A stretch of 64,000 bases of DNA from an uncultured Pelagibacteraceae bacterium (GTDB lineage: Bacteria; Pseudomonadota; Alphaproteobacteria; Pelagibacterales; Pelagibacteraceae), in NCBI GenBank assembly GCA_902516435.1, contig CABXYF010000001.1, positions 1 through 64,000 of the forward strand, written 5' to 3'. The notes below the pieces were generated by a model. It searched no databases. It was given only the letters and a program-made list of their open reading frames with translations, and was not told the origin of the DNA. Position 1 is the first letter of the stretch, and each line of letters begins with the position of its first letter. This document shows, in pieces, positions 1 through 58,340 of this stretch. A program made the position numbers and the translations under genes.

Positions 1-885
1 CTCATTAGTAGCTCATTTAGAACTGACGCCTTTTTTGGACTTGAGGAAAATATTGGTTATTTACTTTTCTTATTAACATTTTTAATTTATTTATATTATT
101 TAGAAAAAAAAAATAATTATTACTTATTCTTTTTAATTTTAATTGCCTCCTTAACATTTTATACAAGGCAAACTTATGCATTTGTTTCAATAATTATATA
201 TTTAGCAATCATAAATACAAATCAATTACTATCAAAAAAAAACTTCGCTATTACATTTCTTTTTATTATATTTCTTCTTCCGTCCTTATATTTTTTTTAT
301 AATTGGGGATCTTTAATGCCAACAGAGGCAGCCGAACGTTTAGTTCCTTTTAATTACAACAATATAGCTATAATTTTTGGGATGTTTGTAATTTTTAATA
401 TTCCTTTTTTCATAAATGAGTTAATAAAAAATAGAACAAATATAATATCAAGTAAAAATATTGGAAAATTAATTTTAATACCCATCTTTTTTATTATTTA
501 TGCTTATACTTTTTGGAATATACCTTACTCAGATTTTGGTGGAGGACCTTTGTATAAAATATATTTAAATTTTTCAACTTTTAAACCACTGTACCTATTT
601 TTTTCTTTTTTAGGATTAATTTCAACTATTTATTTTTCATTTAAAAACTATCGTTTATCTATTTTTTTTATATTTTTTATATTTATTTATTGCTTTGCAG
701 ATAACCTTTTTTTCTCTTATTTAGATCCATTAATGTTATTATCTTTATTAATTTTCCATGATAGAATTATTTTTGATTTAAAAAAAAATATAATTTATTC
801 CCTAAGTGTATATATGTATTTTTTAACTTTACATTTAAGTTGGATTTATTACTTTCATATAATTATTGGTGACACTGTAAGATAA
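1..885 (+). CDS. Polytopic membrane protein, 5'-truncated by window edge
   Basis: Reading frame 1 is open from the first base to the TAA at 883-885, so the gene starts outside the window; the ATG at 316 is internal. About 294 residues are visible. They form a chain of strongly hydrophobic segments (roughly seven or more membrane helices) rich in Phe, Ile, Leu and Tyr, broken by short basic loops. A TRQTYAF motif lies in an early loop after a helix; RQ-type loop motifs of this kind occur in multi-span glycosyltransferases of the ALG10/GT-C sort, which is a loose resemblance only. It precedes a nucleotide-sugar cassette by 33 bases in the same direction, so a role in building or moving a surface polysaccharide is likely. 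An O-antigen polymerase or flippase is an alternative. Specific function is not assigned. Confidence 0.75.
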   Translation, partial: LISSSFRTDAFFGLEENIGYLLFLLTFLIYLYYLEKKNNYYLFFLILIASLTFYTRQTYAFVSIIIYLAIINTNQLLSKKNFAITFLFIIFLLPSLYFFYNWGSLMPTEAAERLVPFNYNNIAIIFGMFVIFNIPFFINELIKNRTNIISSKNIGKLILIPIFFIIYAYTFWNIPYSDFGGGPLYKIYLNFSTFKPLYLFFSFLGLISTIYFSFKNYRLSIFFIFFIFIYCFADNLFFSYLDPLMLLSLLIFHDRIIFDLKKNIIYSLSVYMYFLTLHLSWIYYFHIIIGDTVR

Positions 886-918: not shown

Positions 919-1692
919 ATGAAAATCTTTATTTTATGTGGTGGTTTTGGAACAAGATTAGATCATGAAAGTAAATTTATTGCTAAGCCAATGGTTAGAA
1001 TTGGAAAAGAACCAATTCTTTATCATCTTGTTGAAAACTTTTATATCCAAGGTTTTGATGAGTTTGTGTTATGTTTGGGTTATAAAGCAGAAAGTATTAT
1101 AAATTATTTTACAAAAGAAAAATCAAAACAGACTAAAATTTTACAAAAAACTAAAAATCATATTAAAATTTTGTTTAAAAATAACAAAATTAAAATTAAG
1201 GTTTCTTTAATAGATACGGGTATAAAATCAGGAACTGGTGGACGAATTAAAATTGCTTATAAGACACTGAAATTAGATGAAGATTTTTTAATGACTTATG
1301 GAGATGGTCTGTCAAACATATCAATTAAAAAATTAATAAAATTTCATTATAAGAATAATTCACTTGTTACTATGACCGCGGTAAAACCTAAACAAAGATA
1401 TGGGATTCTAGAAATCAAAAAGAATAGAGTAAATTTTTTTGATAATTCAAAAAAAAAAGTTGACGTGTATATTAATGGGGGCTTTCATGTTATTGATAAA
1501 TTAAGTTTAAAATATATAAAAAATAAAAAGATATTTTGGGAAAAAGAACCTATTAGTAAAATTTTAAAAATTAATAAACTCTATGCTTTTAAACATGACG
1601 GGTTTTGGAAAAGTTTAGATACTCAAAAAGATAAAGTTGATTTTAATAAAATTTATAGACAAAAAAAATTAAATTGGAGGTTTAAAAACTAA
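919..1692 (+). CDS. rfbF: Glucose-1-phosphate cytidylyltransferase (RfbF-like)
   Basis: Predicted to join CTP and glucose-1-phosphate to give CDP-glucose, the entry step to CDP-3,6-dideoxyhexoses in the cytoplasm. The N-terminus has the nucleotidyltransferase signature GGFGTRL at residues 8-14, followed by AKPMVRIGKEPIL with the conserved Lys-Pro pair, and LCLGYK near residue 53. Further family landmarks are TGIKSGTGGRI, YGDGLSNI (metal-binding Asp) and the C-terminal GFWKSLDTQKDK, which matches the GFW-x-x-DT-x-x-D block of RfbF. The length of 257 aa is normal. It is followed after one base by the 3-dehydratase gene, so the two are co-transcribed. A glucose-1-phosphate uridylyl or thymidylyl enzyme is less likely because the C-terminal block is RfbF-type. 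Confidence 0.85.
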   Translation: MKIFILCGGFGTRLDHESKFIAKPMVRIGKEPILYHLVENFYIQGFDEFVLCLGYKAESIINYFTKEKSKQTKILQKTKNHIKILFKNNKIKIKVSLIDTGIKSGTGGRIKIAYKTLKLDEDFLMTYGDGLSNISIKKLIKFHYKNNSLVTMTAVKPKQRYGILEIKKNRVNFFDNSKKKVDVYINGGFHVIDKLSLKYIKNKKIFWEKEPISKILKINKLYAFKHDGFWKSLDTQKDKVDFNKIYRQKKLNWRFKN

Positions 1693-1693
1693 A

Positions 1694-2884
1694 ATGAAAA
1701 TTACCTATGGAAAAAATTTATATAATAACCTAGAGATATCTTCGGTTGTTAAAAAATTGAGAAAGACAACTCAAATGGGAGATGCAGTATCTAATTTTGA
1801 AAAAAAAATTGCGAAATATTTTGGAAAAAAATATGGGTTGATGGTTAATTCGGGATCATCTGCATTAATTTTAGCTATAGAGTCACTTAAATTAAAAAAA
1901 GGCTCAGAGATAATTGTTCCATGTTTAAACTTTGGAACAGCAGTTTCTTCTGTTTTAATTTGTGGGCATAAGCCAGTTTTTGTCGATACAGAAATTGAAA
2001 CTTTACAAATAGATATCTCAAAAATAGTAAAAAAAATTACAAAAAAAACTAAAGTAATTATGGTTCCAAATTTAATTGGAAATGTTCCAGATTGGAAAAG
2101 AATAAATAAAATTGCAAAAAAATTTAATCTCATAGTAATAGAGGATTCAGCTGATACTTTAGGTGCTCGTATAAATGATAAACCAACTGGGATTTACAGT
2201 GATATTTCGATTACAAGTTTTTATGGATCTCATATAATAAGTTGTGCTGGTAATGGAGGAATGCTTTTAACAAATAATAAAAAATATTACGAAAAAGCAA
2301 AAGTTCTTAGAAGTTGGGGTAGAATGTCTAGTCTTATTAAAAACTCTGAAAATATTATTAATAGATTAAACATAAAACTAAAAGGGGTTGATTACGATAA
2401 AAAGTTTGTATTTTCAGAATTGGGTTATAATTTTGAACCAAGCGAAATCGGTGCAGCTTTTGGTCTAGTTCAGCTAAAAAAATTTAAAAAATTTATGATC
2501 TTAAGAAATAGAAATTTTAAAAAACATATAAATTTTTTTAAAAAACTTAGTGATCATTTTATTGTTCCAAATATTTATGAAAATGTTAAAACAAATTTTC
2601 TTGCCTATCCAATAATTTTAAAAACCAAAAAATTTAAGAGAAAAGATCTTCAAATATTTTTAGAAAATAATAATATTCAAACTAGGCCTATTTTTAGTGG
2701 TAATATCTTAAGACATCCTGCATTTACAAATTTGATAAGTAATAAAAATAAACTAAATCAATTTAAAAATGCAGATTATATTATGAAAAATGGAATCTTA
2801 ATTGGTTGTCATCAAGCATTAAAAAATAAAGACGTACAATATATCCACTCAAAAATTAAACAATTTATCTCTAAATTTAAATAA
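1694..2884 (+). CDS. rfbH: PLP/PMP-dependent 4-keto-6-deoxysugar 3-dehydratase (RfbH/ColD-like)
   Basis: DegT/DnrJ/EryC1/StrS-fold protein of 396 aa. The cofactor Asp is seen in IEDSADTLGA (D151). The position normally held by the Schiff-base lysine is His180, in SFYGSHIISC. In this superfamily that His is the mark of the E1 (RfbH) and ColD dehydratases, which remove the C3 hydroxyl rather than transaminate. The C-terminal blocks TRPIFSGN and LIGCHQ also match ColD/RfbH. Only two cysteines follow His180, so the four-Cys [2Fe-2S] motif of E1 appears to be absent, which is more ColD-like. With rfbF upstream the substrate is probably CDP-4-keto-6-deoxyglucose, but no CDP-glucose 4,6-dehydratase is in view. 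The stop codon overlaps the next start (TAATG). Confidence 0.82.
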   Translation: MKITYGKNLYNNLEISSVVKKLRKTTQMGDAVSNFEKKIAKYFGKKYGLMVNSGSSALILAIESLKLKKGSEIIVPCLNFGTAVSSVLICGHKPVFVDTEIETLQIDISKIVKKITKKTKVIMVPNLIGNVPDWKRINKIAKKFNLIVIEDSADTLGARINDKPTGIYSDISITSFYGSHIISCAGNGGMLLTNNKKYYEKAKVLRSWGRMSSLIKNSENIINRLNIKLKGVDYDKKFVFSELGYNFEPSEIGAAFGLVQLKKFKKFMILRNRNFKKHINFFKKLSDHFIVPNIYENVKTNFLAYPIILKTKKFKRKDLQIFLENNNIQTRPIFSGNILRHPAFTNLISNKNKLNQFKNADYIMKNGILIGCHQALKNKDVQYIHSKIKQFISKFK

Positions 2885-4668
2885 TGAACTTATCTGATTA
2901 TGTTTTAGATTTTTTAGTAAAAAAGAGGGTAAAAAAAGTTTTTTTAATTACCGGTGGAGCAATTTCATTCATGGTTGATGCTTTCTCAAGAAATAAAAAA
3001 ATAAGATACATTTCGGTAGGACATGAACAAGGTGCTGCAATGATGGCAGATGCATATTCAAGATTAGGGCCGAATTACTCTTGTACTATGGTCACATCTG
3101 GACCAGGCGCAACGAATTTATTAACAGGCATAGCATGTTCATATTTCGACTCTATTCCAGCACTTCATATATGTGGTCAGGTAAACACGTATGAGCAACA
3201 AAGTTCAAATAAGAGTACTTTAAATGTTAGACAAGTTGGTTTTCAAGAAACTGATATTGTTAGTATTTCTAAGCCCATAACAAAATTTTCATACAAACTG
3301 AAAGATCCTAAAGAAATTAGATATATTTTAGAAAAAAGTCACCATATTGCAACTTCTGGAAGACCTGGTCCTGTCTTAATTGATATACCAATGGATTTAC
3401 AAAGATGTAAAATAAACCCAACAAAACTAAAGTCATTTAAATTTACAAAAAAAAAAAAAAGTAAAATTAATTCAAAAATTAATTACGTAATAAATAAAAT
3501 TAAAAAATCGAAAAAGCCTGTAATTATATTAGGTGGTGGCGTTAAATATGCTGGTGCAGAAAATAATTTAAATAAGTTTTTGCAAAAATTAAATATTCCA
3601 GTTGTAACAACATGGAGTGGTGTCGATTTAATAGATCACAATCAAGATAAGTATATAGGAAATATTGGTGTTTACGGTAGTAGAGCTGCAAATTTTGTAA
3701 TTCAAAATTCTGATTTATTTTTATCATTAGGCTCAAGATTAGATACGAGAGTTACTGGAGGAGTTCCAAAAAACTTTGCAAGAAAAGCAAAAAAAATAAT
3801 GGTTGATATAGATAAAAATGAATTAAATAAAAAAAGGGGATTAAAAATAGATTATAAAATTCATGAGAATGTAAAAATTTTTTTAGAGAAGATATCTTCA
3901 GTAATTAATTCAAAAATATCCAAAAAAGATTGGCTAATCAAATGTAAGGAATGGAAAAAAAAATATCCTACTGTAGATAAAAAGTATTATGAGGATAAAA
4001 AATATGTGAATCCATACGTATTTATTGAAGTTTTATCAAAGAAATTATTAAAAACAGATACTATAATTGCAGATGACGGTGGACATTTAACTTGGACACT
4101 TCAAGCGTTTAAAGTTAAATATGGTCAAAAACTTTTCTCAGCATTTGGTAATTCGCCTATGGGTTATTCTCTACCAGCAAGTATTGGTGCCTCGATAGCA
4201 AAAAATAATTCAAGAATTTTTTGTATAGATGGTGATGGAAGTATTCAGATAAATCTTCAAGAATTGCATACAATAGATAAATTAAAATTACCTATTAAAA
4301 TTTTTGTATTGAACAATAATGGTTATGGAATTATTAAACAATTTCAAGAGTTGTACCTAGGTAAACGTTTTGAAGCATCAGGTAAAGGTGTATCAAACCC
4401 AAACTTTGAAAAAATTTCAAAAGCATTCAACATAAATTATAATGTTATTAAAAATCATAATGATTTTATTAACTTGGATAAGATAATTAATAGTAAAAAG
4501 GCTGAGTTGGTTGAGGTAATGCTAAAATCCGATCAAAAAATAATTCCTAAGTTACAATTTGGAAATCCTATTGAGGATATGTCTCCTTTACTTCCAAGAA
4601 AAGAGTTTTTAGAAAATATGGAAGTTAATATAATTAAGAGAGATAAAAAAATTTTTGAGGCAAATTAA
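2884..4668 (+). CDS. ThDP-dependent acetolactate-synthase-like enzyme (YerE-like candidate)
   Basis: Full-length (594 aa) three-domain ThDP enzyme. The cofactor-activating Glu is E48 in VGHEQGAAMMADAYSR. Next come SGPGATNLLTG and GRPGPVLIDIP at the end of the PYR domain, a central domain, and the PP-domain motif GDGS at 450-453 running to LNNNGYG at 476-482. General architecture is that of acetolactate synthase, but the gene sits between a sugar 3-dehydratase and an SDR reductase, and a separate ilvBN pair occurs at 56020-58340. YerE of Yersinia uses the same fold to add a two-carbon acetyl unit from pyruvate to a CDP-3,6-dideoxy-4-ketohexose when making yersiniose A. I infer the same type of chemistry here; a different two-carbon donor or acceptor cannot be excluded. 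Confidence 0.78.
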   Translation: MNLSDYVLDFLVKKRVKKVFLITGGAISFMVDAFSRNKKIRYISVGHEQGAAMMADAYSRLGPNYSCTMVTSGPGATNLLTGIACSYFDSIPALHICGQVNTYEQQSSNKSTLNVRQVGFQETDIVSISKPITKFSYKLKDPKEIRYILEKSHHIATSGRPGPVLIDIPMDLQRCKINPTKLKSFKFTKKKKSKINSKINYVINKIKKSKKPVIILGGGVKYAGAENNLNKFLQKLNIPVVTTWSGVDLIDHNQDKYIGNIGVYGSRAANFVIQNSDLFLSLGSRLDTRVTGGVPKNFARKAKKIMVDIDKNELNKKRGLKIDYKIHENVKIFLEKISSVINSKISKKDWLIKCKEWKKKYPTVDKKYYEDKKYVNPYVFIEVLSKKLLKTDTIIADDGGHLTWTLQAFKVKYGQKLFSAFGNSPMGYSLPASIGASIAKNNSRIFCIDGDGSIQINLQELHTIDKLKLPIKIFVLNNNGYGIIKQFQELYLGKRFEASGKGVSNPNFEKISKAFNINYNVIKNHNDFINLDKIINSKKAELVEVMLKSDQKIIPKLQFGNPIEDMSPLLPRKEFLENMEVNIIKRDKKIFEAN

Positions 4669-4673
4669 CAAAA

Positions 4674-5510
4674 TTGAAAAAATTAATTATAATTGGTAGT
4701 TCTGGATTTGTTGGAAAAAGTCTAAATGACTATTTTAAGCATAATAATAATATTAAAATTATTAATTATTCTAGGACCAAAAAAAAAAATATCATTAGTA
4801 TTAAAAAATTACCTAAATCTAATTATATATTTTACTGTATAAATAATAAGAACATTAAGATTAGTTTAAAGTATTTTTGTCATTTTAAAAAACTAATAAA
4901 AAATTATTCAAAAAATATTAAAATAGTATTTATTAGTTCTGGAGCCATATATGGCCCTAGATCAGTAAAAAAAAGATTTACCGAAAATGAAAAAATTTAT
5001 AAAAGTAAATTTAATAATTTTCTAGGATATAAAAAGAATTACTCTAGGGAAAAGTATTTATTGGAAAAAGAATTTAAAAAAATTGCAAAAGATGGTTTCA
5101 AGGTCTCTATTGCTAGAGGTTTTACATTTTATGGTAGACATATTCTAAATTATGATTACTTAATTTCAAAAATAATCTTAGCTACAAAATCAAAAAAAAC
5201 TTTTACAATAAATAACCCAAATACAATAAGAAGTTATATGCATGCTGACGATATGTGTAGGTGGTTAATCAAAATAGCAAAAATTTCTTCAAATAAATGC
5301 CCAGTTGTAAATCTTGGATCAGATAAGATAATAAATTTAACTAAATTCATCAAATTTTTAAATAAAAAATTTAATTCTAAAATCTTGATTAATAGAAATA
5401 ATAAAAAACGTACAGATTTTTACGTTCCTTCAATAATTTATGCTAGAAAATATCTTAAATTAAAAAATACAGTCAATTTTAATAATGCTATAAACTCGTT
5501 AGTAAAATAA
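4674..5510 (+). CDS. NAD(P)-dependent SDR/epimerase-family sugar reductase (YerF-like candidate)
   Basis: Extended-SDR protein of 278 aa starting at a TTG. The Rossmann glycine motif is GSSGFVG (residues 8-14). Catalytic residues fit the family: SSGAIYG supplies the Ser and YSREK supplies the Tyr-x-x-x-Lys. IRSYMHADDM resembles the substrate-proximal block of NDP-sugar epimerases and reductases. It lies five bases after the ThDP enzyme, so a role in reducing the branched ketosugar made by that enzyme (as YerF does) is a reasonable inference. It lacks the N-terminal signature and the length of RfbG, so it is probably not the missing CDP-glucose 4,6-dehydratase. It is very Lys/Asn/Ile-rich, even for this genome. 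Confidence 0.7.
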   Translation: MKKLIIIGSSGFVGKSLNDYFKHNNNIKIINYSRTKKKNIISIKKLPKSNYIFYCINNKNIKISLKYFCHFKKLIKNYSKNIKIVFISSGAIYGPRSVKKRFTENEKIYKSKFNNFLGYKKNYSREKYLLEKEFKKIAKDGFKVSIARGFTFYGRHILNYDYLISKIILATKSKKTFTINNPNTIRSYMHADDMCRWLIKIAKISSNKCPVVNLGSDKIINLTKFIKFLNKKFNSKILINRNNKKRTDFYVPSIIYARKYLKLKNTVNFNNAINSLVK

Positions 5511-5511
5511 A

Positions 5512-6435
5512 ATGAAAATTTCAATTATAACACCTACATTTAACGAAATTGAAAATATTGAAAATATTTATTATGAGATAAAACAAAAATTAAGTGAAAT
5601 AAATTGTGAATATGAACATTTAATTATAGATAATAATTCAACCGATGGAACTACTGACAAAATAAAACAATTAGCTGAGGTTGATAAAAATCTTAAAATT
5701 ATTGTAAATTCGAAAAATTATGGCCATATAAGATCTCCCTTTCATGCATTATTACAAACTAATTCTGACGCAGTTATATTAATGGCATCAGATTTTCAGG
5801 ATCCAATCGAGATGATTCCAAAATATATTGAAGAGTGGAAGAAGGGAAAAAAAATTGTGCTAGGTGAAAAAACATCTTCTGGGGAAAGTAAATTTAAATA
5901 TTCTGTTAGAACTTTATTTTATAATTTTTTAAATAAAATTTCAGAATTTGAATTACCAAAGAATACTACTGGATCTGGAATATTCGATAAGACAATTATT
6001 GAAAAACTTAAAAAGATCAAAGATCCTTACCCTTATTTTAGAGGGCTAATAACTGAACTTGGTGAAGACATTACAACATTACAATTTAAACAACCTGTAA
6101 GAAAATCAGGCATAACAAAAAATAACTTATTCACATTGTATGATATTGGTATGCTGGGAATTGTTAAACATTCAAGAAGACCTCTGAGATTTATGACTTT
6201 ACTGGGATTTTCAGCAAGTCTAATTAGTTTTGTTGTTGGAGTAATTTATTTATTATATAAATTATTTTTTTGGAATTCATTTAGTCTTGGTTTAGCTCCA
6301 ATAATTATTGGAATTTTTTTCATTAGTGCTGTTCAAATTACTTTGTTAGGGTTAGTAGGTGAATACATTGGTGTAATTTTGCTTCATCAAAGAAATATGC
6401 CATTAGTGATTGAAAAGGAGAGAATAAATTTTTAA
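5512..6435 (+). CDS. Family 2 glycosyltransferase, GtrB/ArnC-like, membrane-anchored
   Basis: GT-A glycosyltransferase of 307 aa. It opens with SIITPTFNEIENI, has the nucleotide-binding IDNNSTDGT and a metal-binding ASDFQDP acidic block, so it should use a nucleotide sugar. Two C-terminal membrane helices (about residues 225-250 and 262-288) are arranged as in GtrB, ArnC and dolichol-phosphate mannosyltransferases, which load a sugar onto a polyprenyl phosphate at the inner membrane. It begins one base after the SDR gene and is the last gene of the cassette. A role in transferring the cassette's sugar to undecaprenyl phosphate, or directly onto a glycan, is inferred; donor and acceptor cannot be read from sequence. 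Confidence 0.82.
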   Translation: MKISIITPTFNEIENIENIYYEIKQKLSEINCEYEHLIIDNNSTDGTTDKIKQLAEVDKNLKIIVNSKNYGHIRSPFHALLQTNSDAVILMASDFQDPIEMIPKYIEEWKKGKKIVLGEKTSSGESKFKYSVRTLFYNFLNKISEFELPKNTTGSGIFDKTIIEKLKKIKDPYPYFRGLITELGEDITTLQFKQPVRKSGITKNNLFTLYDIGMLGIVKHSRRPLRFMTLLGFSASLISFVVGVIYLLYKLFFWNSFSLGLAPIIIGIFFISAVQITLLGLVGEYIGVILLHQRNMPLVIEKERINF

Positions 6436-6458
6436 TTATTTTATTTAAAGTTGAAAAT

Positions 6459-6535
<77 letters not shown>

Positions 6536-6541
6536 TTATAC

Positions 6542-6736
6542 TTAAATTCTATTTTTAAGTTTATTTAGTTTTTTTACTCTTTTAATATTTTCTTGAAGAA
6601 TCCTTTTTTTCTTTTCTGAAGGTTTTTCATATGTATTTTTTAACTTAATTACTTTAAAAAAACCATCTCTCTGAAGTTTTCTTTTTAAAACTCTGAGAGC
6701 TTGTTCAATATTATTATCTTTAACTTCTATTTTAAT
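6542..6736 (-). CDS. rpsU: 30S ribosomal protein S21
   Basis: Small basic protein. Landmarks are DNNIEQALRVLKRKLQRDG and the conserved YEKPSEKKKR block, followed by a Lys/Arg tail. S21 joins the 30S platform late and aids mRNA binding. The start is unusual. A TTG at 6748-6746 opens the longest frame, but it overlaps a GGAGG at 6746-6742 that would serve as Shine-Dalgarno for an ATT codon at 6736-6734, five bases downstream. Starting at ATT puts the Ala-Leu pair at residues 13-14, as in the alphaproteobacterial S21 pattern beginning Met-x-x-x-Val-x-Asp-Asn-Asn. I therefore prefer AUU initiation (64 aa); the TTG form would be 68 aa. A hairpin with a T-run ends immediately upstream. Confidence 0.9.
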   Translation of the reverse strand: MKIEVKDNNIEQALRVLKRKLQRDGFFKVIKLKNTYEKPSEKKKRILQENIKRVKKLNKLKNRI

Positions 6737-6741
6737 AACTA

Positions 6742-6746
6742 CCTCC
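6742..6746 (-). promoter_or_regulatory. Shine-Dalgarno GGAGG that decides the rpsU start
   Basis: GGAGG reads 6746 to 6742 on the minus strand, five bases before ATT (6736-6734). No ATG, GTG or TTG lies at a usable distance downstream. The TTG at 6748 overlaps it and has no such motif of its own. Strong SD motifs are uncommon in this window, which makes this one informative. Confidence 0.6.
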
Positions 6747-6771
6747 AAAAAAGTGTTTAAATAACACTTTT
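6747..6771 (-). terminator. Hairpin plus T-run between trcR and rpsU (terminator or attenuator)
   Basis: On the minus strand, AAAAGTGTT (6771-6763) is separated by a 5-nt loop from its perfect complement AACACTTTT (6757-6749). The T-run continues two bases to 6747, abutting the rpsU Shine-Dalgarno. Shape fits an intrinsic terminator for the upstream suhB-rpmE-trcR transcript. Because it touches the rpsU ribosome-binding site it could equally control rpsU expression. The stem is AT-rich, so strength is uncertain. Confidence 0.5.
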
Positions 6772-6799
6772 ATAATTTTTTGTCCAATAAATTTATTCA

Positions 6800-7381
6800 T
6801 TAGGTTTGAGTATGAGATCTTTGTTTATCTTTTTCTTTTTGTTTTTTTTCTCTTTTTATTCTTCTCTCAGCTTTTTCAAGTGCGTCTAATAAATCTTTCT
6901 GTGTAAATAAATTCAATGCTACAGGGTCTTTTGGATTAAGGTTATTATAATTCCAATAACTTTTATTTTTAATAGATGTAACTGAATTTTTAGTAATACC
7001 TACCAACTTAGCGATTTGTGAGTCCTTTAAAATATTGTGTTGTTTAATTAACCATAGGGCTGAGTCTGGTTTATCTTGTCTTTTAGAAAGTGGAACATAC
7101 TTTTTAATTTTTTTTTCACTATTAGAAATTTCAATATCACTACTTTTAATTTCTAATGGTCTTTCTTCATCTGCAGATGATAACTCAATTTCTTGTCTTG
7201 AAAGTTGTCCAGATATAATAGGATTGTATGCCTTTATGCCTTTAGCTACCTCCCCGTCTGCTATACCTTGTATTTCAACAACATGTAATTTACAAAATTC
7301 AGCAATTTGTTTGAATGTTAAAGTTGTATTTTCAACCAACCAAACAGCAGTAGCCATTGGCATTAAAGGGGCATTTGACAT
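6800..7381 (-). CDS. trcR: DUF1013 / TrcR-family cell-cycle transcriptional regulator
   Basis: The 193-aa protein starts MSNAPLMPMATAVWLVENTTLTF, the conserved opening of the alphaproteobacterial DUF1013 family. A helical segment around residues 24-47 (FKQIAEFCKLHVVEIQGIADG) is followed by a variable acidic linker. A second conserved block holds DSALWLIKQHNILKDSQIAKLVGITKNSV, which reads as a helix-turn-helix. The C-terminus is a Lys/Glu-rich helix, as in relatives. In other alphaproteobacteria the family is described as a cell-cycle-linked transcription regulator found near RNA polymerase. It follows rpmE after a gap of zero bases, so the two are co-expressed. Family call is firm; targets are unknown. 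Confidence 0.88.
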   Translation of the reverse strand: MSNAPLMPMATAVWLVENTTLTFKQIAEFCKLHVVEIQGIADGEVAKGIKAYNPIISGQLSRQEIELSSADEERPLEIKSSDIEISNSEKKIKKYVPLSKRQDKPDSALWLIKQHNILKDSQIAKLVGITKNSVTSIKNKSYWNYNNLNPKDPVALNLFTQKDLLDALEKAERRIKREKKQKEKDKQRSHTQT

Positions 7382-7612
7382 TTAATTTTTCTTCTCTGAT
7401 TTAAAATTTTGGAATTTTTTGTTGAATTTACTTATTCTACCTTTATCCATTAGCTTTTGTTTTCCACCTGTCCAGGCAGCATGAGATTTTGGATCAATTT
7501 CTAATTTCAACAGATCTCCTTCAGAGCCCCATGTTGATTTAGTCTCAAATTGCGTTCCATCAGTCATTTCAACTTTTATGGTGTGATAGTTTGGATGAAT
7601 GTCTTTTTTCAT
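7382..7612 (-). CDS. rpmE: 50S ribosomal protein L31
   Basis: 76-aa protein with the L31 opening [14 protein letters not shown], the core [11 protein letters not shown] and the [24 protein letters not shown] block. There are no cysteines, so this is the zinc-free form. It is located at the central protuberance of the large subunit. Length is typical. Start ATG at 7612. It forms a minus-strand run with trcR downstream and suhB upstream, 35 bases away. Confidence 0.96.
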
Positions 7613-7647
7613 AACGGCACTTATAGCAAAAGAAATCTAGAACACAA

Positions 7648-8388
7648 TTAAAAGTTCTTTAAATTTTCAAGCATTTTATCGTTAATTGCATCGCTTGAGG
7701 CTTTAATATTGATATTATTTTTATCACAATTAAGAATATCATTTACAATACCACCAGCTTCTTTAACCATAAGTGATCCAGCAGCAACATCCCAAAGGTT
7801 AATATGATTATGAAAAAAACCATCTAATCTACCTGCCGCAACATAAGCTAAATCTAAAGCTGCACATCCACTATAGCGCATATTTAAATCACAATATTTT
7901 ACTCCTTCATGGTTACTCCCAAACAAACAATTATCTAGTAAGTTTTTTTTCGAAACTCTCAACCTTTGATTGTTTAAAAATGCTCCTTTATCTTCTTCAG
8001 CAAAAAACATTTCATCTTTAATAGGATCAAAAATTAAGCCACTTATAATTTTTCCACTTGATAACAATGCAATAGAAATTGCAAAATGTGGAATACCATG
8101 AAGAAAATTTATTGTTCCATCTATTGGATCTATAATCCAAGTATTTTCATTATCTTTATTAATTATTGATCCAATTTCCTCAGAAAGAAAAGAGTAATTT
8201 TTTTTTGTTTTTTTTAGTTCCTCAATTAAAATTTTTTCTACATATTTGTCAGTTTTCGTAACAAAATCCTTAGGTCCTTTTTTTGATACTTGTAATTTTT
8301 CAATTTCACCAAAATCTCTGATTATAGCCTTTGAAGCTTTTTCTGCAGCTTTTATCATAACATTAAGATTTGAAGATATTGAAATCAT
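7648..8388 (-). CDS. suhB: Inositol monophosphatase family protein (SuhB-like)
   Basis: Mg-dependent phosphatase of 246 aa. Metal-binding motifs are all visible: EE in FLSEEIGS, WIIDPIDGTINFLHG near the centre, and WDVAAGSLMVKEAGG at the C-terminal side. Substrate is expected to be inositol monophosphate or a related sugar phosphate. E. coli SuhB also acts with the transcription antitermination machinery, and the position beside efp and rpmE would fit a housekeeping role. The gene is four bases downstream of efp. Substrate cannot be read from sequence alone. Confidence 0.9.
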   Translation of the reverse strand: MISISSNLNVMIKAAEKASKAIIRDFGEIEKLQVSKKGPKDFVTKTDKYVEKILIEELKKTKKNYSFLSEEIGSIINKDNENTWIIDPIDGTINFLHGIPHFAISIALLSSGKIISGLIFDPIKDEMFFAEEDKGAFLNNQRLRVSKKNLLDNCLFGSNHEGVKYCDLNMRYSGCAALDLAYVAAGRLDGFFHNHINLWDVAAGSLMVKEAGGIVNDILNCDKNNINIKASSDAINDKMLENLKNF

Positions 8389-8392
8389 ATTT

Positions 8393-8953
8393 TTAAATTT
8401 TTTTTATGTACTCTAAATTTCTTGTATCAATTATTACCTCGTCTCCTGACTCAATAAATGGTGGCACTTGAATATTTAATCCATTATCAAGAGTTGCAGG
8501 CTTGTATGATGACGAAACTGTTTGTCCTTTTAAAGCTGCATCTGTTGTTTCTATTTTACACTTTACCTGGTTAGGCAGCTCAACTGAAATTGGATTTTCA
8601 TTGTAAAAATTTACAGAAACCTCTAGATTTTCAGATAAAAGTTTTCCCTGATCTCCAACTACATCTTTTTTAATTTCTATTTGTTCAAAACTTTTTGGGT
8701 CCATAAAAAAATAATAAATTTCATCCTCATAAAGGTAATTAAATTTTGTTTCCTCTAAAGAAGCCTTTTCAACTGTTTCACTTGACCTAAATCTTTCATT
8801 TAACTTTGTGTTTTTTCCAACACTTTTCATTTCAACTTGTGCGAAGGCACCACCTTTACCTGGTTTAACATGCTGAGTTTTTAATACTTGCCATAAATCA
8901 TTCTTATACTCTAAAAGCATTCCAACTCTTATCTCACCAGCATTAATTTTCAT
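8393..8953 (-). CDS. efp: Translation elongation factor P
   Basis: The 186-aa protein has three domains as in EF-P: N-terminal KOW-like (MKINAGEIRVGMLLEYKNDLWQVL), then two OB folds, ending with IDTRNLEYI. The modifiable tip lysine is present in HVKPGKGGAF. EF-P relieves ribosome stalling at polyproline stretches. Its start ATG overlaps the stop of thiE by four bases (ATGA), indicating translational coupling. A beta-lysylation system (EpmA/EpmB) is not in the window. Confidence 0.97.
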   Translation of the reverse strand: MKINAGEIRVGMLLEYKNDLWQVLKTQHVKPGKGGAFAQVEMKSVGKNTKLNERFRSSETVEKASLEETKFNYLYEDEIYYFFMDPKSFEQIEIKKDVVGDQGKLLSENLEVSVNFYNENPISVELPNQVKCKIETTDAALKGQTVSSSYKPATLDNGLNIQVPPFIESGDEVIIDTRNLEYIKKI

Positions 8954-9564
8954 TTTAATCTCTCTAAAGCTTCTAAGGGTTTATATTTTTTATTATTCCA
9001 AATGTAGCCTGAGATAGCTAAAAAATTTGCATTGTTCAATAACAGTTTTTTATAATTTTCTGAATTAATCCCTCCAATAGCCACAATAGAGGTTTTAGTA
9101 ATTTTTTTAATCTTATTTAAAATTTTGATATTCGCCGCATATTTGGTTTTTTTTGTTTTAGAAGAATAAAAAGCTCCAAACGCTAAATAGCTTGCTTTAG
9201 CTTTTATAGCTTTCTTTGCTAAGGTTATAGAATTATGGCAAGTAATACCTATAATTTTTTTGCCAATTATCTTCCTAGCTTCCTTTATATTCATATCTTT
9301 TTGACCTAAATGACAACCATCAGCACCTAATCTTTTTGCAAGTATTGGATCGTCATTGATTAAAAATTTTACTTTATTTTTTTTACAGATATTTTTTATT
9401 TTTTGTCCAATCAAAATTTTATGTTTGAAGGAATATTTTTTGAGCCTCAATTGAAAAAAGCTAATTTTTCCTGTTTCTAGTAATTTTTGAAGATCTTTAA
9501 AAAATTTTTTATATATTTTGTTAGGAGAAATAAGATAAATAAATTTCTTTTTATTTACTCTCAA
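8950..9564 (-). CDS. thiE: Thiamine-phosphate synthase
   Basis: TIM-barrel enzyme of 204 aa that joins HMP-pyrophosphate and thiazole phosphate to make thiamine monophosphate. The signature runs FLINDDPILAKRLGADG, then HLGQKDM; phosphate-binding residues are in GITCHNS and IVAIGGIN near the C-terminus. It overlaps fba by 14 bases and efp by four, so it is carried within a glycolysis-translation operon rather than with other thi genes. thiD lies separately at 28509-29321, and no thiC is seen. SAR11 is known to need the HMP precursor, and this layout is consistent with that. Confidence 0.88.
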   Translation of the reverse strand: MRVNKKKFIYLISPNKIYKKFFKDLQKLLETGKISFFQLRLKKYSFKHKILIGQKIKNICKKNKVKFLINDDPILAKRLGADGCHLGQKDMNIKEARKIIGKKIIGITCHNSITLAKKAIKAKASYLAFGAFYSSKTKKTKYAANIKILNKIKKITKTSIVAIGGINSENYKKLLLNNANFLAISGYIWNNKKYKPLEALERLK

Positions 9565-10561
9565 GTTCTCTCACCCATTTGCCCTGAGCAGCCAATGTAC
9601 ACATTTTAGCTCTGTGATTAAAAGTTTTTTGAGTTCCCTCTACATCTTTTATATTTTTTGACCACATTTTAAGAGCACTTTGCTGAAGAGCTCTTCCATA
9701 TGAGTATGTCATAACAAAATTAGTATTGTTGTTTTTATTTATTAAATTTAAATTTTCTGTAGCTTCTGACTCAGACTGACCTCCTGACAAAAAGGCAATC
9801 CCAGGTACATCACTAGGAACTGAATTTTTAAGACACTCAAGTGTTTTGTTTGAAACTTCTTCACTAGATATTCTCTCTTTTGATTGGGTGCCAGATAATA
9901 TCATATTTGGTTTTAAAATAATTCCTGAAAGATCAACTTTATGCAAGATTAGTTCTTCAAAACATTTTTTTATAACTTCTGATGTTTTATTTAAACAAAC
10001 ATCTGAAGAATGTTCTCCATCCATTAATACCTCAGGCTCCACTATTGGGACCATACCACTTTCTTGTACTAAAGCTGAGTATCTTGCTAGTGCATGAGCA
10101 TTACTATTTATTGCTAGCCTGGTTGGATATTTATCACTTATAGAGTAAACCCCCCTCCATTTTGTAAATCTTGCACCAAGCTCATAATATTTTTTCAATC
10201 TATCTCTGAGGCCATCTAAACCCTCAGTAATTTTTTCTTCAGGAGAGTTTGCTAATTCTTTAGCACCTGTATCAACTTTAATTCCTGGCACAGCGCCTGA
10301 GGCTGAAATTAGGTCAGGGATTGATTTTCCATAACTTGTGGTTTGGTTTATTGTTTCATCGTAAAGAATAACTCCTCCAATACAATCTTTCATGCATTCA
10401 GATGAGAAAAGAATCTCCCTAAACAATAGTCTATTTTCTGGAGTAGAATTTACATTTACCGCTGCAAGTCTCTTAGTCATAGTACCATTGCTTTCATCTG
10501 CAGCAAGTATACCTTTACCGTTAGAAATTATTTTAAGTGCAATTTTGTTTAATTCTGACAT
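9551..10561 (-). CDS. fba: Class I fructose-bisphosphate aldolase
   Basis: Schiff-base aldolase of 336 aa, splitting or forming fructose-1,6-bisphosphate in glycolysis and gluconeogenesis. The class I markers are GKGILAADES near the N-terminus, TKWRGVYS, VPIVEPEVLMDG and the catalytic lysine K217 in GIILKPNMILSG. A class I enzyme is of eukaryote-like type; many bacteria use the metal-dependent class II form instead. It is the last glycolytic gene of the run tkt-gap-pgk-fba, its ATG immediately following the pgk stop. Operon placement suggests co-regulation of central carbon flux. Confidence 0.95.
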   Translation of the reverse strand: MSELNKIALKIISNGKGILAADESNGTMTKRLAAVNVNSTPENRLLFREILFSSECMKDCIGGVILYDETINQTTSYGKSIPDLISASGAVPGIKVDTGAKELANSPEEKITEGLDGLRDRLKKYYELGARFTKWRGVYSISDKYPTRLAINSNAHALARYSALVQESGMVPIVEPEVLMDGEHSSDVCLNKTSEVIKKCFEELILHKVDLSGIILKPNMILSGTQSKERISSEEVSNKTLECLKNSVPSDVPGIAFLSGGQSESEATENLNLINKNNNTNFVMTYSYGRALQQSALKMWSKNIKDVEGTQKTFNHRAKMCTLAAQGKWVRELESK

Positions 10562-11743
10562 TTATTGATTTAACGCGGTTATACCAGGAAGCTTTTTACC
10601 TTCAAGATATTCTAAAAAGGCTCCACCTGCAGTTGAAACAAAGTTAAAATCATCAACAGCCTTTATACTTTTTAATAATGAGACTGTATCTCCTCCACCA
10701 ACAACTGAAAAAATTTTATTTAATTTATTGTTTTTAATTATTATTTTGGCTATTTCAATACTGCCGTTCGCAAAGTTAGGGTTTTCAAAATATCCAGCAG
10801 GACCATTCCATAATATGGTCTTACTAGAATTAATAATATTTGTTATTTTATCAATAGTTTTTGGGCCAATGTCTAAAATCATTTCGTCGTTCAAAACTTC
10901 ATTTAATTTTCTTTTTTTGAATGATCCATTTAAGTCTTTAGATACAAGTACATCTTCTGGATAACTTATTTCACATTTTTCTTTTTTCGAAAGTGAAATA
11001 ATTTCTTCAATGATTTTGTTACAGTTTTTTTCTTTAACAGATTTTCCAATATTGTGACCAAAGTACTCAATAAAATTATTAGCCATAGCTCCTACAATAA
11101 TAATATTATCTAATTTAGGTAATAAATTTTTAATAATATCAATTTTGGTCGAAATTTTGGATCCTCCTATTATACAGGATATTGGTTTTGTAATTTCAGA
11201 GGTAATTTTAGTGAGGGCATCAATTTCTAAATCTATTTGTAATCCAGAAAATGAGGGCAGGAATTTAGAAATTTCAACAATTGAAGCATGTGAACGATGA
11301 GAACAGGAGAAAGCATCATTAACATAAATATCACCAAAACTTGCTAGGTGCTCTGCAAACTTATTATCATTTGTTTCTTCTTCTGCATAAAACCTAATAT
11401 TTTCTAACATTAAGATTTTCTCATCAAAATTATCGAAGAAATTCTTATTTTTAATTTCATTTATATTTTGTGTAATTAATTTCACATTTAAACCTAATTG
11501 CTCCTCTAAATTTTCACAAATTGGTTTTAATGAAAGTTCTTTTAAAGCCTTACCTCTTGGTCTGCCCACATGTGATAAAATAATAATTTTAGCTTTTTGT
11601 TTATTAAGAAATTTTAAGGTAGGTAAAATTTTATCTATTCTAGTTGTGTCACTTATTTTCCCGTTAACTATGGGAACATTTAAATCTAATCTTAGTAATA
11701 TTTTTTTATCCTGAAGATTTGTTTCGTTTTTAATACTTCTCAT
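10562..11743 (-). CDS. pgk: Phosphoglycerate kinase
   Basis: Two-domain kinase of 393 aa that interconverts 1,3-bisphosphoglycerate + ADP and 3-phosphoglycerate + ATP. Substrate-binding blocks are LLRLDLNVP, SHVGRPRG and the domain-linking IGGSKISTKI. The ATP-side landmarks are LWNGPAGYFENPNF and VVGGGDTVSLL. Its ATG overlaps the last base of gap, and its stop directly precedes the fba start. Length and motif order are typical. Confidence 0.97.
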   Translation of the reverse strand: MRSIKNETNLQDKKILLRLDLNVPIVNGKISDTTRIDKILPTLKFLNKQKAKIIILSHVGRPRGKALKELSLKPICENLEEQLGLNVKLITQNINEIKNKNFFDNFDEKILMLENIRFYAEEETNDNKFAEHLASFGDIYVNDAFSCSHRSHASIVEISKFLPSFSGLQIDLEIDALTKITSEITKPISCIIGGSKISTKIDIIKNLLPKLDNIIIVGAMANNFIEYFGHNIGKSVKEKNCNKIIEEIISLSKKEKCEISYPEDVLVSKDLNGSFKKRKLNEVLNDEMILDIGPKTIDKITNIINSSKTILWNGPAGYFENPNFANGSIEIAKIIIKNNKLNKIFSVVGGGDTVSLLKSIKAVDDFNFVSTAGGAFLEYLEGKKLPGITALNQ

Positions 11744-12750
11744 TAAGAGATTTTATGCAAATTTTCAGCTATATCACACATTCTGTTAGAAAAACCCCAT
11801 TCGTTGTCATACCAAGCTGAAATTTTACCCATATTTGCTCCTACCACACTTGTTAAAGACGCATCAACGATTGCAGAAGCTGAATGGTGATTGAAGTCAA
11901 CAGAAACTAATTTTTCATACGTGACTTCTAAAATTCTTTTTAATTCTCTTTTTGAAGCTAATTCAAATTCATTATTTATATTTTTTATATTAATTTTTTT
12001 TTTTGTACAAAAAACTAATTCTACTAGAGAAACATTCGGCGTAGGTACTCTCATCGCCACACCTTCTAGTTTTCCTTTCAAACTTGGAATTATTTCACCT
12101 ATTGCTTTTGATGCTCCAGTCGATGTAGGAACAATCGACTGGCTTGCAGATCGAGCTCTTCTTGGATCTTTATGAGAATTGTCCAAAATTCTTTGGTCAC
12201 TAGTAAATGAATGAATCGTAGTCATAAAACCTTTTTCAATTTCAAATTTTTTGTGAATGACATCTACAACTGGCGCCAAACAATTCGTAGTACATGAGGC
12301 AGCTGAGATTATTTTATCTTTTTTAGACAAGGTGTTTTCGTTAACACCAAAAACTATTGTTTTGTCTGCATTTTTGCATGGAGCAGATACAATCACTTTT
12401 TTTGCACCATTTTTAATATGAGCTTCAAGTTTTTCTCTTGAGTTAAATTTACCTGTACATTCCAAAACAAAGTCAACATTGTACTTTTTCCAATTAATTT
12501 TTTCGATCTTAGGCTCTTGAGAAAATGAAATTTTTTGTTTATTTATTATTAAATTATTTTCATCAAATCTAATATCAGCATCAAATTTTCCATGTATAGA
12601 ATCGTATCTAATTAATTTACCTGTACCCTCTGAATTTGATCTGTTATTAATATGCTGAATCTTTAAATTTTTATTTCGACTTTCAAAAATTGATCTGACA
12701 ATCATACGACCAATTCTACCCATTCCATTAATTCCAATTTTGATTGCCAT
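11743..12750 (-). CDS. gap: Glyceraldehyde-3-phosphate dehydrogenase, type I
   Basis: 335-aa enzyme with the Rossmann motif GINGMGRIGR, catalytic Cys153 in ASCTTNCLAP and His in TTIHSFTSDQ. The cofactor-selecting Asp of NAD-specific enzymes (end of the second beta strand) is replaced: the sequence reads HINNRSNSEG, giving Asn36-Arg37. The S-loop reads LDNSHKDPRRAR, without the Gly-Pro of the NAD-type enzyme. Both features lean toward NADP or dual cofactor use, as in GapB-type enzymes; this is inference. It is the only gap gene in view and lies between tkt and pgk. Confidence 0.95.
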   Translation of the reverse strand: MAIKIGINGMGRIGRMIVRSIFESRNKNLKIQHINNRSNSEGTGKLIRYDSIHGKFDADIRFDENNLIINKQKISFSQEPKIEKINWKKYNVDFVLECTGKFNSREKLEAHIKNGAKKVIVSAPCKNADKTIVFGVNENTLSKKDKIISAASCTTNCLAPVVDVIHKKFEIEKGFMTTIHSFTSDQRILDNSHKDPRRARSASQSIVPTSTGASKAIGEIIPSLKGKLEGVAMRVPTPNVSLVELVFCTKKKINIKNINNEFELASKRELKRILEVTYEKLVSVDFNHHSASAIVDASLTSVVGANMGKISAWYDNEWGFSNRMCDIAENLHKIS

Positions 12751-48509: not shown

Positions 48510-48599
48510 ATCTTGAAAATAATCCCGAACACAGCCCGAATCCTATGGTTGTATTTTTTAAATAACGTTGATACTGAAAACTAAATTAAATAATGAGAA

Positions 48600-48625
48600 G
48601 GGGCGTTCTGTTGCCAGGTGCCCCA
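48600..48625 (-). repeat. tmRNA coding-piece 3' tail (direct repeat copy 2, intact)
   Basis: Functional copy of the 26-base element that recurs at 47407-47432. In the RNA, GGGGC and GCCCC at its two ends pair to close the last hairpin of the coding piece. ssrA 3' regions are well-known integration sites, so this may be an att-type core. Confidence 0.8.
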
Positions 48626-48654
48626 GACCCCGTTTGCTTAATTAACTGAGTTAA

Positions 48655-48684
48655 TTAGGCAGCAAGTGCGTAACTTTCGTTAGC
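48655..48684 (-). other. tmRNA proteolysis tag reading frame (ANESYALAA)
   Basis: Minus-strand frame of nine codons starting with resume codon GCT (48684-48682) and ending TAA (48657-48655). The translated tag is ANESYALAA, ending in the ALAA recognised by ClpXP-type proteases. Compared with the E. coli tag (ANDENYALAA after the charged Ala) it is one residue shorter. Confidence 0.88.
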
Positions 48685-48899
48685 AATTATAAATTAGCCC
48701 GTTTCGGTGGAACAATCCCGAACGAAAGAATAGCCTTTAGACATCCGTCGAATCTAGTTCACCCCCATAAGTTGTAATGGTGGAGGTGGTGGGTACTGCC
48801 CCCACGTCCGCAATGGTTATTACGAAATTCGTTTATCGTCGTAGTTGGAAAACCAACTTTATTAATATAAAAGGAATTACAACAGATTCAAGAACAATC

Positions 48900-56014: not shown

Positions 56015-56027
56015 GCGAAATGTCTAA
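55992..56027 (+). other. Eleven-codon upstream frame overlapping the ilvB start
   Basis: ATG at 55992 opens [11 protein letters not shown] with TAA at 56025-56027, eight bases into ilvB in another frame. Its position would allow translational coupling, but it lacks the Ile/Val/Leu run of classical ilv leader peptides and has no clear SD. Existence as a translated peptide is doubtful. Confidence 0.25.
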
Positions 56028-57786
56028 ATTATACACAGGAGCAGAAATTGTATTTAAATGCCTAGAAGATCAAAAGGTAGAGCATATTTTTGGATATCCT
56101 GGAGGAGCAGTTTTACCAATTTATGATGAGCTTAAAAATCATTCCTCAATAAAACATATCTTAGTTAGACATGAACAAGGTGCAGGTCATGCAGCGGAAG
56201 GTTATGCAAGGTCTTCTGGTAAACCAGGTGTAGTTTTAGTTACATCTGGACCTGGAGCTACAAACGTTGTCACAGCATTAACTGATGCATACATGGACTC
56301 AGTTCCCTTAGTTTGCATTTCTGGCCAAGTTCCAACACACTTAATTGGAACTGATGCTTTTCAAGAATGCGACACCACAGGTATTACGAGACCTTGCACA
56401 AAACATAATTGGTTAGTTAAAGATATTGATGATCTTTCAGATATAATGCACGAAGCTTTTAAAGTTGCAACTTCAGGAAGACCAGGTCCTGTTTTAGTTG
56501 ATATCCCAAAAGATATTCAATTTGCTAAAACTAAATATAAAAAACCAAAAAAAGAAAAAAAATCAAATGGAAAACCTGTAAACAAATTTTCTCAAAATCA
56601 AATCGATCAATTAGTTGATCTATTAAAAAATGCAAAAAAACCAGTTATTTATAGTGGTGGTGGAGTAATTAATTCAGGTCCAAAGGCAAGTGATGCATTA
56701 AGAGAGTTGGTAGAATTAACAGGATTTCCTATAACATCAACACTACAAGGTCTAGGCGCTTACCCTGGTGATGACAATCAATTCTTAGGGATGTTAGGTA
56801 TGCATGGAACTTATGAGGCAAATAATGCAATGCATGATTGTGATCTTTTAATTAATATTGGTGCAAGATTTGATGATCGTATAACTGGAAAAATAGATGA
56901 ATTTTCTCCAAATTCAAAAAAAGTTCATATTGACATAGATCCTTCATCTATAAATAAAATTATTAAAGTTGATCTTGCTATTGTTGGAGATGTTGCGAAA
57001 GTAATTACTAAAGTTAATAAAAAAATACTAAAGAAGAAAAATGGAAATGATAAATCTAATAAGTCAAATATTGCTAAATGGTGGGAACAAATACAAAAGT
57101 GGAGAAGCAAAGATTCTCTTAATTTTATTAATAGCAATGAAAGTATTAAACCTCAGCATGCAGTACAGAGACTGTACGAATTGACAAAACATAAAGATAC
57201 TTATGTAACAACTGAAGTAGGCCAACATCAAATGTGGGCAGCACAACATTATAAATTTAACAAACCAAATAGATGGATGACATCAGGGGGCTTAGGTACT
57301 ATGGGTTACGGTTTGCCGGCTGCAGTAGGAGTACAAATTGCACATCCTGACAAGCTAGTAGTTGATATTGCAGGTGAGGCCTCCGTATTGATGACAATGC
57401 AAGAAATGTCCACTGCAGTTCAATACAATTTACCAATCAAAATTTTTATTTTGAACAATCAGTACATGGGAATGGTTAGGCAATGGCAAGAACTTTTGCA
57501 TGAAAAGAATTATTCAGAGAGTTACTCTGAGGCACTTCCTGATTTTTTAAAAATGGCTGAAGCTTATGGCTGTAAAGGAATTAAAGCAGAAAATCCCTCA
57601 GAATTAGATGAAAAAATACAAGAAATGATAGATTTTAATGGTCCAGTAATTTTTGATTGTCACGTTGATCCAAACGAAAATTGCTTTCCAATGATACCTT
57701 CAGGAAAGCCACATAATCAAATGATCTTAGGACCTAATGATCAAGAAGATAACAAAATCAAGGGAAAAGGAAAAGCCTTAGTCTAA
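56020..57786 (+). CDS. ilvB: Acetolactate synthase large subunit
   Basis: 588-aa ThDP/FAD enzyme making acetolactate and acetohydroxybutyrate for valine, leucine and isoleucine. Catalytic Glu E52 in [20 protein letters not shown], then [19 protein letters not shown]. The Mg/ThDP motif that is usually Gly-Asp-Gly reads G452-E453-A454 ([16 protein letters not shown]), running to [14 protein letters not shown]. Small subunit gene follows after five bases, then ilvC and leuA. Confidence 0.96.
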
Positions 57787-57791
57787 TTATA

Positions 57792-58340
57792 ATGCCAAAA
57801 TCAAAATCAGCTTATAGTGTTCCAACTAAAAAACAAAAATCAGATACTTATATATTTGTAGTTTGGGTTGATAATGAAGCAGGTGTTCTTGCAAGGGTTG
57901 TTGGATTATTTTCTGGCCGTGGTTACAATATTGAGTCTTTAGCGGTAGCCGAAGTTGATGCTGTTAAAAATATTTCTAGAATAACTATTGTTACAACTGG
58001 CACACCTCAAGTGATCGATCAAATTAAACTACAATTGGCTAAGTTGGTACCTGTTCATAAAGTTGCAGAATTTAAAAGAGAAGATAAAAATGTTATATTT
58101 AAGGAGATGGCATTATTTAAAATTGTAGGAAAAAAAAAGAAATTGGAAAAATGCTTAAATGCTTGTAAAAAATTTGATTTGGTTATTTTAGATGAAACTA
58201 AAACATCTAAAGTCATACAGATAACTGCACTTAGAAGAGATATAGATAAAATTAGTAAGAAATTAAAACCCCTGGGACTTATAAGTGCCTCAAGAACGGG
58301 AGCAGTTGCAATGACAAGAGGGGCTCAAATATTTAATTAA
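57792..58340 (+). CDS. ilvN: Acetolactate synthase regulatory small subunit
   Basis: 182 aa. An N-terminal ACT domain (VVWVDNEAGVLARVVGLFSGRGYNIESLAV) binds valine for feedback control; a C-terminal domain with LFKIVGKKKKLEKCLNACKKF and SRTGAVAMTRG follows. Longer than E. coli IlvN and closer to IlvH type. Pairs with IlvB just upstream. Confidence 0.95.
   Translation: MPKSKSAYSVPTKKQKSDTYIFVVWVDNEAGVLARVVGLFSGRGYNIESLAVAEVDAVKNISRITIVTTGTPQVIDQIKLQLAKLVPVHKVAEFKREDKNVIFKEMALFKIVGKKKKLEKCLNACKKFDLVILDETKTSKVIQITALRRDIDKISKKLKPLGLISASRTGAVAMTRGAQIFN

Follow-up and report, generated by a model that had tools for sequence, protein, structure and literature searches.

The first 64,000 nucleotides (the window) of contig CABXYF010000001.1 (contig C1) from an uncultured Pelagibacteraceae bacterium, a member of the SAR11 group (assembly GCA_902516435.1), were analysed. 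Near the beginning of the window, at positions 919–6435 of the plus strand, is a run of genes consisting of rfbF- and rfbH-like genes, a thiamine diphosphate (ThDP) enzyme gene, a short-chain dehydrogenase/reductase (SDR) gene and a family 2 glycosyltransferase (GT2) gene. This run is treated here as a probable cassette for a branched surface sugar. Its genes are on the same strand, and neighbours overlap or are separated by 0–5 nt; with the gene at 1–885 included, six plus-strand genes extend almost without gaps from base 1 of the contig to a tRNA-Met at 6459. An earlier note on this DNA had listed the cassette genes and assigned the host to SAR11; each gene was found at the position given for it, and related loci from Pelagibacteraceae bear out the assignment to SAR11. 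The features are as follows.

1–885, plus strand: C-terminal portion of a protein with multiple membrane spans, probably of the GT-C type (cut by the contig start)
919–1692, plus strand: RfbF-like glucose-1-phosphate cytidylyltransferase (TIGR02623, 1tzf, rfbG-adjoining orthologues)
1693–1693, plus strand: single base between the rfbF stop and the rfbH start; site of rfbG (~1,070 bp) in relatives
1694–2884, plus strand: RfbH/ColD-type sugar 3-dehydratase of the pyridoxal phosphate (PLP) fold without iron-sulfur (Fe-S) cysteines (His180, PRK15407, 3bcx, 3b8x)
2884–4668, plus strand: predicted YerE-like ThDP-dependent carboligase (clade with PpYerE and JanthE; ThDP motif)
4674–5510, plus strand: extended SDR, predicted branch-ketone reductase (PF01370, cofactor motif, YxxxK)
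5512–6435, plus strand: GT2 of the ArnC/PgfS/polyprenyl-phosphate type (PgfS NF047588, membrane helices)
6459–6535, minus strand: tRNA-Met, the first gene past the cassette and the edge of an A+T-rich stretch

The ThDP enzyme has the acetohydroxyacid synthase (AHAS) fold. In the PDB it matches 5ahk best (328 bits) and 8rph next (308 bits), and both outscore all plant, yeast and E. coli acetolactate synthases. Entry 5ahk, deposited under the name acetolactate synthase II, is PpYerE of Pseudomonas protegens. Entry 8rph is JanthE, a YerE-like enzyme that accepts ketones (PMC12188165). In a 54-row tree the ThDP enzyme forms one clade with PpYerE, JanthE and other sugar-linked relatives (99/96 support). 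Outside this clade, the IlvB encoded in the window groups with E. coli IlvI, IlvB and Gcl; Oxc and PoxB are outside it as well. The grouping with PpYerE and JanthE, apart from the window IlvB, gives good support to a YerE-like role, i.e. a predicted carboligation of a keto acid with a ketone. The expected motifs are present: G450-D451-G452 and N477-N478 (GDG..NN), as well as the catalytic E48. Position 487 is Phe in both the ThDP enzyme and PpYerE, whereas Trp occupies it in IlvI and the window IlvB. The pair R289/F487 is the same in the ThDP enzyme and PpYerE; the corresponding residues are P/T in JanthE and Q/S in the enzyme of locus L203 (loci of other genomes are denoted by L numbers). The match to PpYerE weakly favours pyruvate as the donor. 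An AlphaFold model of the enzyme was too poor to be used (mean predicted local distance difference test score, pLDDT, of 44), and searches of plasmid and phage records with the protein gave matches at the acetolactate-synthase level only.

Related genes are found in other settings as well. A YerE-like gene 63%–66% identical to that of the window is present at L018 (positions 10869–12674), L035 and L041, where it adjoins thyX (a thymidylate synthase gene) and is accompanied by no RfbF, RfbG or RfbH; in the L018 genome (G171), rfbF and rfbG are on a different contig. The ThDP enzymes of L040 and L045 (Gottesmanbacteria, Patescibacteria) share 54% and 48% identity with the SAR11 enzyme and lie in sugar clusters. 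These homologues from the candidate phyla radiation suggest an old cross-phylum transfer.

The RfbF sequence gives 232 bits with TIGR02623, below the cut-off of 300 bits, and 79 bits with the runner-up family. Its best PDB match is the glucose-1-phosphate cytidylyltransferase 1tzf (E = 4e-52), and its orthologues in relatives adjoin an rfbG that scores above its own cut-off. The earlier note had suggested that rfbG, the CDP-glucose 4,6-dehydratase gene, be sought immediately upstream of the window. The window, however, is the contig start, so nothing upstream of it is readable, and relatives carry rfbG between rfbF and rfbH (L019/L038, L022/L027, L023/L028 and L042), a site that is empty in the window. 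The three rfbG genes tested (L019, L022 and L023) score 418–421 bits with the CDP-glucose 4,6-dehydratase model (cut-off 278). In relatives, rfbG starts within the 3′ end of rfbF (CCATGG); the window reads AATTGG there, and both gene ends are intact. Because of these intact ends, and because rfbF no longer contains the rfbG start, an assembly cut is not favoured as the cause of the missing gene. The rfbG of this genome may lie on missing sequence (the assembly consists of 45 contigs and is 79% complete), or it may have been replaced or lost.

RfbH served as the query against 399 genomes at genus level and 397 at family level, and the flanks of the 31 loci that reached 57% identity or more were read. 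Only 20 of the 31 have rfbG directly upstream of rfbH, and its absence in the window is thus not unique. Some of the loci without a directly upstream rfbG have an alternative dehydratase-like SDR nearby. A CDP-glucose 4,6-dehydratase was found in five of the ten other genomes that bear the ThDP family of the window type. At L188 (positions 4129–7762), L193 and L199, a GT2-like gene and a gene for a dehydratase-like SDR come after RfbH; the SDR gives 201 bits with TIGR01181 and 172 bits with TIGR02622, both below cut-off. This SDR is possibly a stand-in for RfbG.

RfbH displays the DegT fold, and His180 replaces the PLP lysine (SFYGSHIIS). The score with PRK15407 (RfbH) is 286 bits (cut-off 423), and the best PDB matches are E1 (3bcx) and ColD (3b8x). 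None of the positions that are Cys in E1, those of the Fe-S motif among them, has a Cys in the window RfbH or in its 32 SAR11 homologues (33 sequences); ColD likewise does not have the E1 Fe-S motif. No E3-type reductase was found in the window genome by a search for PF00970 (FAD domain), which is present in 8 of 14 control genomes. The missing Fe-S cysteines and the missing PF00970 reductase make a ColD-like, E3-independent 3-deoxygenation likelier than the E1/E3 route of Yersinia. The “exact logic” of Yersinia YerE/YerF, which the earlier note had ascribed to these genes, does not extend to this step.

The SDR has intact GxxGxxG, S88/S89 and Y123-x3-K127 motifs. Its predicted model (pLDDT 64) matches nucleotide-sugar SDRs generally and no specific reductase. 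Orthologous SDRs are found downstream of YerE-like enzymes and of split transketolases alike. The window SDR shares 62% identity with that of L038 (YerE type) and 56%–57% with those of L191 and L200 (transketolase cassettes), and all four form one clade (99/99). The ketoreduction step of yersiniose synthesis was still uncharacterised in 2016 (PMC4753412). The GT2 scores 154 bits with PgfS NF047588 and 82 bits with ArnC, and has two C-terminal membrane helices. Its orthologues (55%–78% identity) close cassettes of all three kinds in other genomes.

Directly after RfbH, 7 of the 31 loci (including the window) have a YerE-like ThDP enzyme, 10 have a split transketolase, and one has an HpaI-type aldolase together with a ThDP enzyme. 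In three more the carboligase is just upstream. The split transketolase is a pair of open reading frames (PF00456 and PF02779) with cofactor and His/Glu motifs that are transketolase-like by eye. On the RfbH tree the transketolase and YerE-type labels require seven changes, and well-supported branches of the SDR tree force three. Several carboligase swaps are needed to account for these trees. As predicted from these comparisons, the cassette is a modular branched-sugar unit with exchangeable branch donors. The balance tips slightly toward a wider proposal, in which SAR11 keeps a core of RfbF-RfbG-RfbH...SDR-GT2 and exchanges the branch-adding enzyme (YerE-like or split transketolase, which belong to two unrelated superfamilies, or an aldolase-fed version), the transketolases being ketone-accepting. 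It should be noted that split transketolase halves occur in 74 of the 399 SAR11 genomes, mostly in other contexts near other DegT or SDR genes, and that only the closest subgroup is linked to RfbFGH. A branching role of the RfbFGH-linked pairs is suggested by their position and common neighbours.

The split transketolase pairs of this wider set (L218–L242 and others) mostly have genes of other aminotransferase-type proteins or SDRs as neighbours, and probably contribute to several different surface sugars. At L203 (positions 2533–11837), RfbFGH, an HpaI-like aldolase, a YerE-like enzyme, an SDR and a GT2 are found in one cassette. It further encodes an acetaldehyde dehydrogenase and a 4-hydroxy-2-oxovalerate aldolase (318 bits, cut-off 229), enzymes that would fit a donor of the hydroxy-keto-acid kind, like that of ErwE (PMC12247030). 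Genes of 313 and 347 aa beside some cassettes (L031, L189) were considered as alpha-keto-acid dehydrogenase subunits, but by eye they resemble an SDR and an old-yellow-enzyme-type protein.

Gene order, gene families, phylogeny and the slot swap are observed. Every substrate is inferred from these, as are the donor, the product and its surface location: the cassette would make a CDP-activated 4-C-branched 3,6-dideoxyhexose and pass it to a surface glycan (probability about 0.77). RfbF would convert glucose-1-phosphate to CDP-glucose, and a 4,6-dehydratase, which relatives encode as rfbG and which was not found in this genome, would convert this to the 4-keto-6-deoxy sugar. The His-type PLP enzyme RfbH would then take off the 3-OH. 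The YerE-like enzyme is predicted to decarboxylate an alpha-keto acid, probably pyruvate, and to place the acyl unit on C4 of the keto sugar, so that the branch would have two carbons. The SDR would reduce the branch ketone, and the GT2 would transfer the sugar to polyprenyl phosphate. A probable GT-C enzyme (1–885) may use the polyprenyl-linked sugar outside the inner membrane. A split transketolase, or an aldolase with a ThDP enzyme, in the slot would alter the branch and leave the rest as it is. The earlier note had proposed a YerE-like cassette for a branched CDP-3,6-dideoxy sugar; this is supported by the phylogeny, the presence of rfbG in syntenic relatives and the carboligase swap, but the Yersinia-type 3-deoxygenation was not borne out and the dehydratase is missing.

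Several observations weigh against the branched-sugar cassette. RfbF and RfbH both score below their NCBIfam equivalog cut-offs, 10 of the 31 RfbH loci have no adjoining carboligase, and the ThDP relative in L018 stands alone by ppdK and thyX, with rfbF and rfbG elsewhere in that genome. In addition, no CDP-glucose 4,6-dehydratase was found in the 79%-complete assembly (no TIGR02622 match over cut-off and no match to SAR11 RfbG), and without a 4,6-dehydratase the pathway cannot run. The earlier note had held that absence of any such enzyme from the genome would refute the pathway. The outcome is divided: no CDP-type enzyme was found, and the sole 4,6-dehydratase-like gene of the assembly is a dTDP-type RmlB-like one, cut short where the 3.9-kb contig C35 ends. 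The cassette could then be a remnant, with rfbG deleted and the pathway dead in this strain while the other frames are still intact. The absence of rfbG from exactly between rfbF and rfbH, and of its CCATGG start from the rfbF end, which does not look like a fresh assembly cut, would fit a remnant. All remaining frames are open, however, and catalytic residues are kept; the genome is incomplete, with the contig ending at window base 1, and about one third of RfbH loci have no rfbG directly upstream, some of them with the alternative SDR nearby. A remnant is considered unlikely.

A second question is the identity of the donor. Some YerE-like enzymes use long-chain donors (ErwE; PMC12247030), and the L203 cassette pairs RfbFGH with aldolases, so the ThDP enzyme might use a longer or hydroxylated keto acid and the branch would not be the two-carbon one of yersiniose. 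The window cassette has no aldolase, though, and its R289/F487 pair is that of PpYerE rather than that of L203 or JanthE; a longer donor is considered rather unlikely. An acetolactate synthase, or some other enzyme of central metabolism placed among sugar genes by accident, appears a very improbable identity for the ThDP enzyme. TIGR00118 is its best NCBIfam model, but the score of 432 bits is below the cut-off of 538 and no small subunit adjoins. The window has a dedicated ilvBN elsewhere, as the earlier note had stated (56020–58340; ilvB at 56020–57786, ilvN at 57792–58340), and this IlvB, with IlvN beside it, gives 1086 bits on its own model. The tree, moreover, separates the two into different clades. 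The refuting outcome named in the earlier note (a place inside the IlvB, oxalyl-CoA or sulfoacetaldehyde groups) did not arise, and the tree rules out the IlvB and oxalyl-CoA identities. The linkage of the ThDP enzyme to rfbFGH also recurs across many genomes.

The branched-sugar cassette can be compared with known systems. Yersiniose A synthesis (Yersinia pseudotuberculosis VI, where YerE is a ThDP flavoprotein) is alike in the predicted start from CDP-glucose, in the RfbH-type 3-deoxygenation and in having an AHAS-fold ThDP enzyme of the YerE clade with an adjoining candidate reductase. The window differs in its dehydratase without E1 Fe-S cysteines, in that no E3-type reductase was found in the genome, in the absence of rfbG from the cassette and in its continuation with a polyprenyl-phosphate-type GT2/GT-C. 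Erwiniose synthesis (ErwE, a long-donor enzyme) has the same kind of keto-sugar acceptor and a hydroxy-keto acid supply similar to that of L203, whereas the window has no aldolase and a PpYerE-like active-site signature. ColD, the GDP-4-keto-6-deoxymannose 3-dehydratase of colitose synthesis, shares the His-type PLP dehydratase without Fe-S cysteines, but the context in the window is CDP (RfbF/RfbG), not GDP. In Streptomyces, split-gene transketolases were proposed for the branching of miharamycin and amipurimycin, their function pending (PMC12247030). A split transketolase occupies the same slot in sister cassettes of the window; the SAR11 ones, however, are tied to RfbFGH, an SDR and a GT2, and the cassette of the window carries a YerE-like enzyme instead. 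What makes this cassette a variant is its dehydratase without Fe-S cysteines, together with the exchangeable slot.

SAR11 are among the most abundant bacteria. The YerE/split-transketolase slot, with its common dehydratase, reductase and glycosyltransferase, forms a natural experiment on possible keto-sugar branching by split transketolases. If the proposal is true, these would be sugar-branching enzymes that accept a ketone, with CDP-4-keto-3,6-dideoxyglucose as their substrate; to date such a role has been proposed only, and for Streptomyces alone. Slot swaps would then be a means of altering surface sugars enzyme by enzyme. Such a one-module exchange may diversify the coat seen by phages, and so bears on phage recognition. 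For enzyme chemistry, the cassettes offer further YerE-like enzymes and transketolases as candidates for which an acceptor is predicted. No paper on such a cassette in SAR11 was found within the literature searched; a 2025 survey counted SAR11 O-chain clusters and did not analyse gene functions (PMC11898729).

The base composition and neighbours of the cassette were also considered. The cassette stretch has 24% G+C, compared with 30% in the rest of the window, and this fits the 23.8% reported for Pelagibacterales O-chain clusters (against 29.4%; PMC11898729). A 5S rRNA, expected beside a typical cluster of this kind, was not found beside the cassette, where only the tRNA-Met is present. The protein at 1–885 has at least five hydrophobic spans and no Pfam match, and is probably a GT-C glycosyltransferase that uses a lipid-linked sugar. 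The membrane proteins encoded just before the cassette in L036 and L043 are 38%–40% identical to it. The L019/L038 gene in this position matches PMT_2 but cannot be aligned with the window gene.

Five IMG/VR viral contigs (L107–L111, e.g. L111 positions 6674–11547) encode an RfbH-like protein, a YerE-like ThDP enzyme and an extended SDR, apparently a phage-borne branched-sugar cassette. Their RfbH-like protein has the His plus cysteines at the E1 Fe-S region, and an RmlB-like dehydratase is present in L107–L109 and L111. Genes for PhoH, a single-strand DNA-binding protein or a helicase are nearby. The ThDP protein of these contigs matches phrog_11199, which is listed as of unknown function. 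Elsewhere in the window, a tmRNA with the tag ANESYALAA was detected by ARAGORN on the minus strand at 48564–48872.

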